Assembly (NCBI RefSeq): GCF_000003815.2
Contig: NC_049996.1
Coordinates: 5,782,012-5,846,011, forward strand
From: Branchiostoma floridae
Taxonomy: Eukaryota > Chordata > Leptocardii > Amphioxiformes > Branchiostomatidae
Direction of reading: 5' to 3'
Length of the DNA: 64,000 nt
Part shown: positions 206 through 9,194 of the stretch, in pieces
Position numbering within the stretch: the stretch's first letter is position 1
How the letters are laid out: the number at the start of each line of letters is the position of its first letter
Program-made: the position numbers and the translations under genes
The notes under the pieces: model-generated
Seen by the model: only the letters and a program-made list of their open reading frames with translations
Told to the model about the DNA's origin: nothing
The model's database searches: none

Positions 206-853
206 CCGAATGTTCCCACGCGGTACATGACAGTAGAGTGGATAGAGACGGCCCACACACCAACACGTCCCACTGAGATGAACAGGAATCGCTCTGTGCC
301 GACTACTTCCCAACGAGTTCCTAATATATCAATATTTCCTCTTATCTTTTTGTATTATTATTATCATTAGTAGTAGTAGTAGTAGTAGTAGTAATAGTAG
401 TAGTAGTAATAGTTGTAGTAGTAGTTTCATTATCACCATCATTATAATAATTAATATTGTTGTTGTTGTTGTAGTAGTTATTATTAGCATCATCATCATT
501 ATCAGTATTATTATTGTTGCTGTTGTTACTATTATCATCATTATCATCATCATTATCATCATTATCATTATCATCACCATTATCATCATTATCATCAGCA
601 TTATCATCATTGTCATCATTATCATCATTATCATCATTGTCATCATGATCACACTTACAGAAAGAACTAAACTGCACAACTGCTGCCCGCCTACCTTGAG
701 GGACTGCTGCGGTAATACCTGTGCGTCGCAACGGCCTGCCGGACTCATCCAATGCCCACACCTGATTGGTGGAGGAGCTGACGCTGATTTGTTTGATCCT
801 GACGTCACTGATCCAAAGCCAGTCAGGCTGGAGAGCGTCCTGAGCAGACGGCT
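206..853 (-). CDS. Exons 9-10: tectonin-type (TECPR) repeats
   Basis: Exon 853-695 (phase 1-1, after a strong pyrimidine tract) encodes PDWLWISDVRIKQISVSSS, then VWALDESGRPLRRTGIT. Exon 320-206 (phase 1-2) encodes GTRWEVVG, FISVGRVGVWAVS and YRVGTFG. The pattern W-x(n)-ISV-x(n)-VWAV-x(n)-YRxG is that of tectonin beta-propeller blades. The first acceptor splices in frame to the preceding CUB exon (codon G|AG). A propeller needs five or six blades, so more should lie to the left. The intron between the two exons holds a trinucleotide microsatellite. Confidence 0.7.
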
Positions 854-6800: not shown

Positions 6801-9194
6801 GAGCTAACCAAAACTCGTGCCCATATCTTTTTCAGATCACAAGGTATCAACACCGGAAGTTCCTTTGTACTACCCAAAATCGAATCATGTCAAGGTCTCG
6901 TGAAGATCTACCCACATACTAAGTATAAGAGAATTCCCCCAGCCCGTGTTGAAAAACGGACAGTACACACGAACGCCACCGAAAACACAAACTTCTTGGC
7001 GAATAGACACATTTTTGACACCTCGCCACCGAGTCAACTCCTTAAGATTCACCTCTGCTTAATCACCTTGCCCGTTGTTGACCTGTCTTGCTTATAGACG
7101 CTGTCTTAATTACTATTAAGCTGTACATGTATGTTATTTGGCACGAGCCAATCAGCGCCTAGATTTCAAGTGTCCAATATGGCGGGTATGCAGGATATCG
7201 AAATTTGTTCATAGACGACCGTCTCAGTCATGAATATTCATGACATGCCTTAGTTAGCAATAGCGTTTCATTTGGACAACAAAAATACATTTTCTGAGTC
7301 AAAAAGGGTAAACGACTGGTTAAACACACAGCGTCAGAGTACGGAATACCGAACAAATGATTCTTCTTCTTTTACATCTTCATTGATTTTCAAAATGACT
7401 TTGTTATCTTTGCTCTACTAATTAGTACTAGTATCGGATATGTTTGAACAATTTCCATCATATTGTTGCTCATGTCCAGCTGCTTTGTAATACCTCCAGC
7501 ATGGTCGAAACTTTGTGGAAACAGACAATTGATACGTGCGTGCAGGAATATCATCCATATAATCAAATCAACATGGCCTTAGGATCAGTATAAAACTCAA
7601 CAAGCCTACCACTGTACTCTCCCAGCAAAGTAGCATCGTCGTAAACCGCAATCCAGTCGTAGAGATCCTCTAAACTGAAGGCTACTGGTGTCAACTTGAC
7701 GACCTCCCCCAAGGCGACCTCTATGGTCCACGTACAGAACATGTTGTTGCCGTACTGCCCAGGGTAGTTGGGAGAATCGATGTAGCCAGACGATTGGCGG
7801 GTTACATAACCACCGCACTCCCCTAAACAGACAGGAAAATGGAACAAGTTCTTACTGCCTTGAAAGGAAAAACGCTGTGTTTCCGGTTACCTGACTGCAA
7901 AATCCTACCAACCATAGTCTTTTTTTTCACCGCTGTCAAAGAACATATTCCTTTCCATTAAACATCTGTGCAAAGAAAAGTTGTAGAATCGTTTTCCAAA
8001 ATGTTCTCCTCATTTCTGTTGCAACAGAAAAATTTGATATAAACAGACCCAATAAACCTAGGTCCCCTTTATGTTGACACATTGCATAATAGTACACCTG
8101 CATAGTTGAAATATAGTGTTGGGACTACAGGTGTCTTGCTGCATGTCCCTTTTGTATTTTTAAACTGTATGTTTTTGGATCACTTCGACCGAGATCTAAA
8201 TATAAAAGAAGAACATCCCGGCCGGCCTACCGAGCCTTTTTTTTACAGTGCCGTAATTGGAAACAAAGCATTCTTCCTAGGCCTTATATAGCGTGAATAT
8301 GTTTTATAGTTGCAATTCTATGATAACAAACATTTCTTGTTCAAGAAAAAAAATGAAATGCATTATTTCATTTCCCGTCGCTTTATGTAAAAGCAGAAGA
8401 GACTGTTTTGTCTAATGAAGCTGGTACTGGCTCAGTCTAAAAAACATACATGGTACAAAATAAACAAGAGCTCGGAGACCTCATACTTCCATAGAATATT
8501 TTAATTATGCAAATGACTTACCATTAACACATCATATGCATGGACACCTTTAACTAATTTACACATGTTAAAAGTATGACATTACTACCACTCATCACTG
8601 CTGGGATGAATTGTCACTTGCATAAATTATGCAAATTGGGCCAATGTTCTCATAATTAGTGTAAGTTAATCTTCCGCCTTCCATGGATGACATGCATCAA
8701 AGTCATAGTATGGAAAACACTTGTTTCATAGAATCTATGCAAATTGAGTTCCAATTTTCGTTTCAATGTCTGAGCTATCCACATACATTAAATCATGTAG
8801 ATTCATTATTCTTTTCATGAGTTATCCTCAAGCTCTATAGATCAAAAGCCATCTGTCACCAAAAAAATAAGATCATATCATGACCAGGACAAAAGATACA
8901 TAAACAAAAAGTTCTGCTGCAGTACGCAAGGTCTCACAGGAAGGGCCCACGTGGCAACTATCAACACAATCCGCCAAGGCATTCTTGGGTTATACTGTTT
9001 ACAGACATACACCGAATCACACAACAAACCAGACAAAACATTCCCTTCTGGCGAGGGGATCTACCGTAGCATATGTGGAATAAGATGCATCTCTATATTA
9101 AAGTGTAGTTGTACTTACCATGTTCCTGGGCGTGTCCCGGTATGTTGCGCCACACCGATGTTGTTAAGAGAAGTACTTTAAGAGACCAGAGCAT
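206..9194 (-). CDS. Secreted CUB-CCP-CUB-CUB-tectonin repeat protein, 5' complete, runs off left edge
   Basis: Ten coding exons, joined by hand: 9194-9119, 7822-7610, 6392-6288, 5109-4918, 3780-3678, 3214-3096, 2386-2240, 1731-1405, 853-695 and 320-206. Each is bounded by AG/GT, and phases agree at every junction (1,1,1,1,2,1,1,1,1, then 2 at the end), giving about 518 residues. The ATG at 9194 has an in-frame TAG upstream and opens a signal-peptide-like stretch (MLWSLKVLLLTTSV). Domains in order: CUB ~27-131, CCP ~138-194, CUB ~198-318, CUB ~319-427, tectonin-type repeats ~428-518. CUB and CCP modules mediate extracellular protein binding; tectonin repeats form beta-propellers that bind sugars or lipids in lectins such as tachylectin and fish-egg lectin. 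A secreted or matrix recognition protein is inferred. The end lies beyond the window. The exon chain is strong; no transcript was available, and an alternative exon could be missed. Confidence 0.8.
352..653. repeat. Trinucleotide microsatellite (AGT/ATC/TTG-type)
   Basis: About 300 bases of near-pure triplet repeat: tagtagtag, then ttgttgttg, then tcatcattatcatcat. It lies in the intron between the two tectonin exons. Open frames through it are low-complexity artefacts. Confidence 0.95.
1405..1731 (-). CDS. Exon 8: third CUB domain
   Basis: A 109-codon phase 1-1 exon with donor CAG|GTACGT at 1405. It carries the CUB core (YQQWDITVD, YCLGDQVVID, CGTC, VVVFMTDF, DGFSARYEA). The first disulfide is lost: there is no N-terminal Cys, and YQQW replaces the usual C-x-W. 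The second Cys pair is kept. Two-cysteine CUB domains are known, so this may be functional. Confidence 0.82.
2240..3780 (-). CDS. Exons 5-7: second CUB domain
   Basis: Exons 3780-3678, 3214-3096 and 2386-2240 together encode one CUB domain. It begins with a Cys and GRYVYGQDGEIASP, reforms the C-T-W motif exactly across the first junction, continues with PGEVVVLEF and CLYDWF, then Phe-Cys-Gly and HSDGEIATTGFRIRY. Phases are 1-2, 2-1 and 1-1. A TACTAAT branch point precedes the 3780 acceptor. All four CUB cysteines are present. The exons are too short and scattered to be found by a simple open-frame scan. Confidence 0.82.
3825..4249. mobile_element. Foldback DNA element with 8-bp target duplication, intronic
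   Basis: Arms of about 95 bp (3826-3922 against 4133-4226) are inverted copies rich in the motif cagttcgcaacaaggcaag. Both ends are flanked by the octamer GTCAAAGG (3817-3824 and 4250-4257), a size typical of hAT transposons. The left arm lacks about 20 bases present at the right end. The interior is GC-rich and has no transposase frame, so this is a non-autonomous element in an intron of the CUB gene. Confidence 0.75.
4918..5109 (-). CDS. Exon 4: CCP/sushi domain
   Basis: A single symmetrical phase 1-1 exon of 64 codons. It shows the four-cysteine sushi pattern CPDPGVPHNGYR ... VSFGCHEGF ... ITCMSG ... W ... PTCEG, including the invariant Trp before the last Cys. Length and exon structure match complement-control modules such as those alternating with CUB in CSMD and SEZ6 proteins. 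Confidence 0.88.
5216..5556. mobile_element. 341-bp MITE with CAGGGCTCGAAATA ends
   Basis: The 14-bp perfect terminal inverted repeats are cagggctcgaaata (5216-5229) and tatttcgagccctg (5543-5556). They are flanked by CTTTA on both sides (5211-5215, 5557-5561), a probable 5-bp target duplication. The interior holds several gtgcaggtaa motifs in both orientations. There is no coding frame. The superfamily is not assigned: CAGGG ends suggest hAT, but the duplication is too short. Confidence 0.75.
5761..5820. repeat. Perfect 30-bp tandem duplication
   Basis: Bases 5761-5790 and 5791-5820 are identical, a very recent duplication in an intron of the CUB gene. Confidence 0.97.
6288..7822 (-). CDS. 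Exons 2-3: first CUB domain
   Basis: Exon 7822-7610 encodes ECGGYVTRQSSGYIDSPNYP and the C-T-W motif followed by W-x-I and the YDWIAVYD core. Exon 6392-6288 supplies the C-terminal strands, with the TDGAFTAEGFRIHF end typical of CUB. The intron is preceded by a good branch point (tactaat) before the 6392 acceptor. The canonical second disulfide is absent: where family members have a Cys-Gly pair this one has Ser-Gly at the exon junction. Confidence 0.82.
6560..7100. repeat. Dispersed repeat with ATGCAAAT/ttgcataa and '...gggcccaaa...' blocks
   Basis: This belongs to a repeat family seen again at about 8.4-9.1, 9.36-9.62, 22.2-22.9, 24.4-26.0, 27.58-27.9, 31.07-31.25 and 54.2-54.4 kb. Shared blocks are an octamer-like atgcaaat ... 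tttgcataatt section, a gctagggggcccaaa section and a '...gttcttgagttat...' section followed by a CA-rich tail. Similar repeats are widespread in marine invertebrate genomes. No protein is encoded. Confidence 0.6.
8400..9115. repeat. Dispersed repeat copy (octamer/'cggagacctcatac' family)
   Basis: Contains gagctcggagacctcatact, shared with about 25.39 kb, repeated atgcaaat/gcataattt sections, and the tail blocks described for 6.6-7.1 kb. It lies in intron 1 of the CUB gene. Confidence 0.55.
9119..9194 (-). CDS. Exon 1: signal peptide
   Basis: The ATG at 9194-9192 is followed by a short hydrophobic run (VLLLTTSVW) and an AQ-EH context that could be a signal peptidase site. The donor CATG|GTAAGT at 9119 is near consensus and leaves phase 1, which matches the next CUB exon. 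An in-frame TAG lies about 36 bases upstream, so this is probably the true start. No TATA box is evident in the AT-rich sequence beyond 9200. Confidence 0.7.

Follow-up and report, generated by a model that had tools for sequence, protein, structure and literature searches.

Do complement-type CUB and CCP modules and the repeats of a tectonin propeller belong to a single lancelet gene, and if so, what kind of protein does that gene encode? The question is raised by a stretch of 64,000 nucleotides of Branchiostoma floridae DNA (positions 5782012-5846011 of contig C18, NC_049996.1; hereafter the window), on whose minus strand a first-pass annotation had proposed ten small exons for a secreted protein of this composition. 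We followed the proposal through the genome (513.4 megabases in 431 contigs). We think it probable, if well short of certain, that these exons form the 5' portion of a single long gene, whose product would be a soluble mosaic of 1969 residues with several lectin domains. The order of its modules is found at about 19 loci, and the protein may act in the recognition of foreign glycans and the uptake of particles that carry them.

From the window to a gene model

The ten exons (Table 1) run from window position 9194 to 206 and, when joined, give one open frame without a stop. Their internal edges are AG/GT throughout and their exit phases chain as 1-1-1-1-2-1-1-1-1-2, in keeping with the agreement in splice phase that had been proposed; the inner edges at 1405, 853, 695 and 320 had also been placed correctly. 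Pfam was run on a 14-exon protein made of these ten exons and four more to the left of the window. It recognised CUB in three stretches, all in window exons (E 1.3e-59 for the whole protein; 1.1e-21, 5.5e-19 and 9.7e-19 for the single domains), and one Sushi/CCP domain, again in the window part. Hyd_WA was matched in four stretches (E 4.1e-19), the best of them at residues 470-499, which correspond to window exons 9-10. For Tectonin, the best stretch (residues 650-726) falls in exon 13, outside the window. Both models score above their cut-offs, and tectonin propeller repeats are therefore present; the modules first named from the bare sequence, CUB, Sushi/CCP and Tectonin, are thus all recovered over cut-off.

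The window cuts the gene: exons 11-36 continue leftwards, from C18 5781707 down to 5747918, and the further blades that had been expected on that side are found there, exons 11-13 completing the propeller. The full model has 36 exons with consistent phases from the ATG to a stop codon at C18:5747918, and encodes 1969 residues, 117 of them cysteines. Its modules follow in the order signal peptide, CUB, CCP, CUB, CUB, tectonin propeller, 13 LDLa exons, F5/8C-like domain, C-type lectin, CUB, C-type lectin. The signal peptide heading this cysteine-rich mosaic is probable and was judged by eye. By eye, too, the W...G...W repeats resolve the propeller into six blades, exon 13 contributing two and exons 9, 10, 11 and 12 one each. 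The LDLa modules start with exon 14, and twelve more exons of this kind come after it; these 13 exons, counted by reading, correspond to seven Pfam stretches of Ldl_recept_a over cut-off (E 4.3e-30). After the array come a two-exon F5/8C-like domain (F5_F8_type_C, E 5.2e-06, 27.0 bits, just below the cut-off of 28.2), a C-type lectin domain, a short linker exon, the fourth CUB, which is over the Pfam cut-off, and a second C-type lectin domain with the stop. The Lectin_C fold is present in both lectin domains, over cut-off (E 6.3e-13 and 3.1e-14). QPD, a mark of galactose-type binding in C-type lectins, occurs at residue 1920 in the last of them; neither EPN nor QPD was found in the first. A secreted protein that joins CUB/CCP modules to tectonin repeats is well supported, but the first-pass view of it was too narrow: the model extends those modules by LDLa repeats in 13 exons, by an F5/8C-like domain, by a pair of C-type lectins and by a fourth CUB, and the whole recurs at about 19 loci.

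Exons were proposed by a mechanical scorer trained on 14 exons, many of its proposals being doubtful, and were kept if domain content or the copy on contig C10 backed them; a GC donor was permitted in chaining, exons 21 and 31 were altered by hand and exon 36 was added by hand. Two other kinds of product were considered for the model. According to PMC2246102, LDLa, CUB and C-type lectin domains occur in lancelet adhesion G-protein-coupled receptors, for which reason a membrane receptor was weighed. It was set aside because the stop codon follows the last lectin domain and because no membrane helix is evident from the 19-residue hydropathy of the 1969-residue model (borderline peak 1.63), no membrane-helix predictor having been applied. 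A MASP-like protease was rejected for lack of a protease domain, neither EGF nor a trypsin-type protease domain being found in the model by Pfam up to E 0.1.

Recurrence of the order and the CUB-to-tectonin junction

Does the same combination occur elsewhere in the genome? Searches returned 968 CUB and 164 tectonin candidates, and the best 150 of each were used. Among these, 17 of 40 tectonin clusters (119 matches) have a CUB within 20 kilobases (kb) upstream on the same strand, where about 0.1 would be expected, and none has one within 20 kb downstream or on the other strand. The remaining 23 clusters have no CUB within 20 kb upstream among the matches listed, and several of them are densely packed (C5:28.1M, C4:3.0M, C13:13.9M, C61) and perhaps form a separate set of tectonin genes.

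Protein queries gave a sharper picture, with statements limited to the matches listed (the best 114 of 235 for the tectonin block, 150 of 1232 for CUB1-CCP and 82 of 771 for the tail). Matches to tectonin exon 13 occur at 19 loci; by reading, LDLa exon 14 accompanies it at all 19 and tectonin exon 9 at 17. A CUB or CCP was counted as upstream if any match lay within 45 kb on the same strand, using the listed CUB1-CCP matches near the 19 loci and two at C2:14.45M, others, lying elsewhere, being left out. By this count both modules, relatives of exons 2-4, stand upstream at 18 loci, and the locus on C7 has no upstream CUB or CCP among the best 150 of 1232 matches. At several loci the upstream region matches CUB or CCP more than once, and the number of CUB-CCP units therefore appears to vary. 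For the tail, up to 70 kb downstream was allowed, and the count drew on 19 CUB4 rows and 20 last-exon rows of 88. Each of the 19 loci has both CUB4 and the last lectin exon downstream on its own strand, the former 14-57 kb and the latter 15-61 kb away from exon 13; the CUB4 match at C19:2.78M is partial only. With one layout repeated at about 19 loci, the unusual combination of domains looks real. The 19 loci need not be 19 distinct genes: those of the C14 cluster may have become neighbours by recent duplication, and C251 may represent an unplaced haplotype. Away from them, at C2:14.449M, lie CUB and CCP exons 54-63% identical to CUB1 and the CCP of this gene, with no tectonin nearby among the matches listed.

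Three of the 18 other loci (on C10, C16 and C19) were compared exon by exon, beyond exon 14 the C10 copy only. Counterparts were accepted only at the phases of this gene, with length free within 30%; equal phase among the copies is thus a condition of the search and not a finding. Counterparts of exons 7-13 are colinear on all three contigs, at about 42-84% identity per exon, and the C10 copy has exons 6-33 in order (exon 19 was missed by the search), with equal length in 18 of the 27 exons found in that range. This phase-limited search did not find exons 3, 4 and 19 on C10, 2-6 on C16 and 3-5 on C19, for which ends of the stretches, breaks or divergence are candidate causes, and its picks for C10 exons 2 and 5 and C19 exons 2 and 9 were discarded as wrong. 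Exon 9 of C19 was missed because its donor would be GC. Over exons 7-13, the ratio of nonsynonymous to synonymous substitution rates (dN/dS) is 0.13 for this gene against the C10 copy, 0.25 against C16 and 0.20 against C19 (without exon 9), and 0.22-0.32 when those copies are compared with one another, at dS values that are high and rough, near or past saturation in several exons. At the level of sequence, coding constraint is shown alongside the exon chain, its domains, the copy number and the recurring order.

The decisive point is the step from CUB3 in exon 8 to the first blade in exon 9. The first-pass annotation had rested this step on a phase-1 acceptor at 853, and the copies speak for the same junction: measured between matched parts in 15 of the 19 copies, the gap from CUB3 to exon 9 ranges from 186 to 4620 nucleotides and is below 500 in eight. 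In four copies the intron itself was read, at 551, 386, 1044 and, on C19, 170 nucleotides. A phase-1 donor and acceptor fit in all four, the introns share only chance-level matches (lowest E 0.055), and reading through past the exon 8 donor meets a stop after 10, 6, 29 and 40 residues, that is, at unlike places. In three of the four, no in-frame ATG was seen before exon 9. In 170-190 nucleotides there is hardly space for one transcript to end and for a second gene to begin with its own promoter and signal-peptide exon, which argues for a junction within one gene. We therefore regard the link from CUB to tectonin as well supported by the genomic copies and probably real.

Possible role and competing readings

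If the model holds, the product would be a soluble recognition protein with several lectin domains, perhaps an opsonin. Its tectonin propeller, F5/8C-like fold and C-type lectin domains would make contact at several points with foreign glycans, those of microbes among them, the LDLa array would act as a calcium-held spacer, and the CUB/CCP head would join subunits or dock soluble partners (ficolins, MASP-like proteases, surface receptors). Particles bound in this way could then be clumped, coated and taken up. Modules of the kinds that follow the head are known from other proteins as binders of sugars or membranes. Ligand, partners and opsonin role are what we infer, and the earlier suggestion of a lectin-like recognition molecule with complement-style partners may be called a plausible guess. 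Indirect support for recognition comes from the QPD motif of the last lectin domain and from human tectonin domains (TECPR1), which bind M-ficolin and lipopolysaccharide according to PMC2707011. A bolder idea, which we put forward as tentative and would not yet back, is that some 19 germline loci supply a giant soluble system of multiple specificities, not described before, in which a propeller, an F5/8C-like domain and two C-type lectins are carried on an LDLa spacer behind a CUB-CCP-CUB-CUB head, and whose diversity stems from copy number and from differences in how many CUB-CCP units a copy has.

The alternative that survives best accepts the gene as modelled and gives it a non-immune role, as a lectin of the egg coat or of gamete recognition, or as a lectin of the feeding mucus of pharynx and endostyle. 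CUB, LDLa and C-type lectin modules are also found in egg coats and mucus, fish-egg lectin belongs to the tectonin lectins (a weak match, 4ruq, E 0.058), and a large copy number would suit a non-immune role as well as an immune one. On the other hand, the title of a report on a tachylectin-related homolog of B. belcheri speaks of antibacterial activity, which we count against this alternative. We consider it unlikely, although a serious contender.

A number of observations weigh against reading the locus as one long gene for a soluble protein. The model is a prediction from genomic sequence, and the novel architectures reported in lancelets include prediction errors that fuse neighbouring genes (Banyai and Patthy, PMC4967905). 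The hydropathy peak is borderline and lies in the F5/8C-like region. Splice sites are weak at the exon 29 donor and at exon 32, whose donor would have to be GC although its counterpart on C10 is GT. Among the copies, exon 9 is not among the matches listed at C14:1.08M and C14:1.19M; on C19 it was placed by hand and needs a GC donor. The C16 stretch yielded no counterpart of exons 5-6, and the C19 stretch none of exon 5. In the C10 copy, a CCP exon is interrupted by an in-frame stop and CUB1 shows an apparent break, beside long runs of N, and because of these two defects it may be decaying at its front, unless the assembly is at fault; it also has an in-frame ATG at the exon 9 acceptor. At the junction itself, five of the 15 gaps exceed 1 kb, two of them reaching 4.6 kb, and all four introns read contain short ATG-to-donor frames (9, 2, 20 and 6) that could mechanically serve as first exons. 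Finally, the short-gap test covers the junction of exons 8 and 9 and none of those after exon 26.

This last point, together with the weak donors of exons 29 and 32, bears on the possibility that the front is correct and the transcript ends earlier, for example after the LDLa array, the F5/8C-lectin-CUB-lectin tail being a separate gene. The distance to the tail also varies widely among loci, as the 14-57 kb to CUB4 indicate. Against a separate tail stand its presence downstream on the same strand at every one of the 19 loci, among the matches listed, and the ordered counterparts of exons 27-33 in the C10 copy, and we judge an earlier end improbable. Least credible is that two or more neighbouring genes (CUB-CCP, tectonin, LDLa/lectin) were duplicated together as a block and wrongly joined by us, for although such fusion is a known failure of lancelet gene models (PMC4967905), a duplicated block would likewise preserve the order at 19 loci, and the longer gaps and the short ATG-to-donor frames noted above speak for it, the many gaps below 500 nucleotides, the 170-nucleotide intron of C19, the fitting phase-1 sites in four copies and the unlike places of the read-through stops all speak for one gene.

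One long gene with this layout would have relatives on several sides. Secreted tectonin lectins share the propeller: by phmmer, it matches Tectonin 2 of Laccaria (5fsb, E 1.1e-05) and, weakly, the fish-egg lectin mentioned above. Those two and horseshoe-crab L-6/tachylectin-1 are stand-alone propellers, whereas the propeller of this model forms part of a mosaic of 1969 residues, with CUB/CCP modules on one side and LDLa modules on the other. CSMD and SEZ6, with their CUB-CCP array and membrane anchor, resemble the head in the succession of CUB and CCP, and several lancelet copies have more than one CUB or CCP upstream; unlike them, this gene has a single CUB-CCP unit followed by CUB-CUB, with LDLa and lectin modules after it; no membrane segment is evident from its hydropathy, with the borderline peak given above. 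C1r, C1s and the MASPs combine CUB and CCP modules as well, and CUB1 matches C1r (6f1c, E 1.5e-14) and MASP-1 (4aqb, E 2.6e-14), but the model is without their EGF and trypsin domains. Cubilin (3kq4, E 1.6e-43) and PCPE-1 (6fzv, E 8.7e-24) are among the best solved-structure matches of the CUB/CCP region; neither is known to have CCP, tectonin or lectin modules. LDLa repeats are shared with LDLR-type proteins, whose membrane anchor has no evident counterpart here by hydropathy. Of similar make-up are the lancelet multi-lectin ApeC proteins (PMC12373286), mosaics that likewise unite several lectin types with CUB (fucolectin, two C-type lectin domains, CUB, APEC); they end in APEC, and tectonin, CCP and LDLa are not mentioned in the passage on them.

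Tectonin lectins are already known, as are CUB-CCP proteins and lancelet lectin mosaics, and it is their combination in one architecture that appears to be new. Our literature search, whose coverage excluded most subscription journals and automatically annotated sequence databases, found, among the papers listed, no description of CUB and tectonin in one protein and no title on this architecture. No paper with both 'tectonin domain' and 'CUB domain' was found, and one with 'tectonin', 'CUB' and 'amphioxus' had the terms in its reference list. Such proteins may sit unnamed in automatically annotated databases. Lancelets have the highest share of 1-1 phase exons among the species examined in PMC4284660, together with fast exon shuffling. 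The locus is a test case in the dispute over the new domain combinations of lancelets, which are genuine on one view (PMC4284660) and products of faulty annotation on the other (PMC4967905). Its value lies in an order repeated at about 19 loci and in a gap at the key junction that, in several of them, leaves no room for two genes. Should the proteins prove to bind microbes, they would constitute a soluble recognition family of a basal chordate in which a complement-like head is joined to several lectin folds.

Feature coordinates and neighbouring open frames

Table 1. Exons of the CUB-tectonin gene inside the window, in order of transcription.
Feature	Window positions	Strand	Content	Phase	Remarks
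Exon 1	9119..9194	-	start codon at 9194 and signal peptide (by eye)	exit 1	known from this gene only
Exon 2	7610..7822	-	CUB1, first part	1-1	
Exon 3	6288..6392	-	CUB1, second part	1-1	weak match in C10 copy
Exon 4	4918..5109	-	CCP (Sushi)	1-1	Pfam Sushi E 1.9e-07
Exon 5	3678..3780	-	CUB2, start	1-2	42% match in C10 copy
Exon 6	3096..3214	-	CUB2, middle	2-1	same-length counterparts in C10 and C19 copies
Exon 7	2240..2386	-	CUB2, end	1-1	same-length counterparts in C10, C16 and C19 copies
Exon 8	1405..1767	-	entire CUB3	1-1	counterparts in C10, C16 and C19 copies
Exon 9	695..853	-	tectonin blade 1	1-1	
Exon 10	206..320	-	tectonin blade 2	1-2	donor after 206

The intron between tectonin exons 9 and 10 contains a long run of trinucleotide-like repeats (window about 360-650). 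Elsewhere in the window, two blocks of tandem repeats of coding length, at 47657-49542, are open in several frames on both strands and are probably minisatellites. Open frames on the minus strand at 28152-31076 carry tetratricopeptide repeats (TPR_12, E 1.5e-16 in one of them), with a match to the NPHP3 TPR model below cut-off. A minus-strand open frame of 680 codons at 19705-21744 has a hydrophobic start and an array of leucine-rich repeats (LRR_8, E 3.3e-50), and perhaps encodes a secreted or surface protein. At 60797-63607, some 52 kb away from where the CUB-tectonin gene starts, a plus-strand open frame of 937 codons combines NACHT (E 1.4e-23) with leucine-rich repeats, as in a gene of NLR type.

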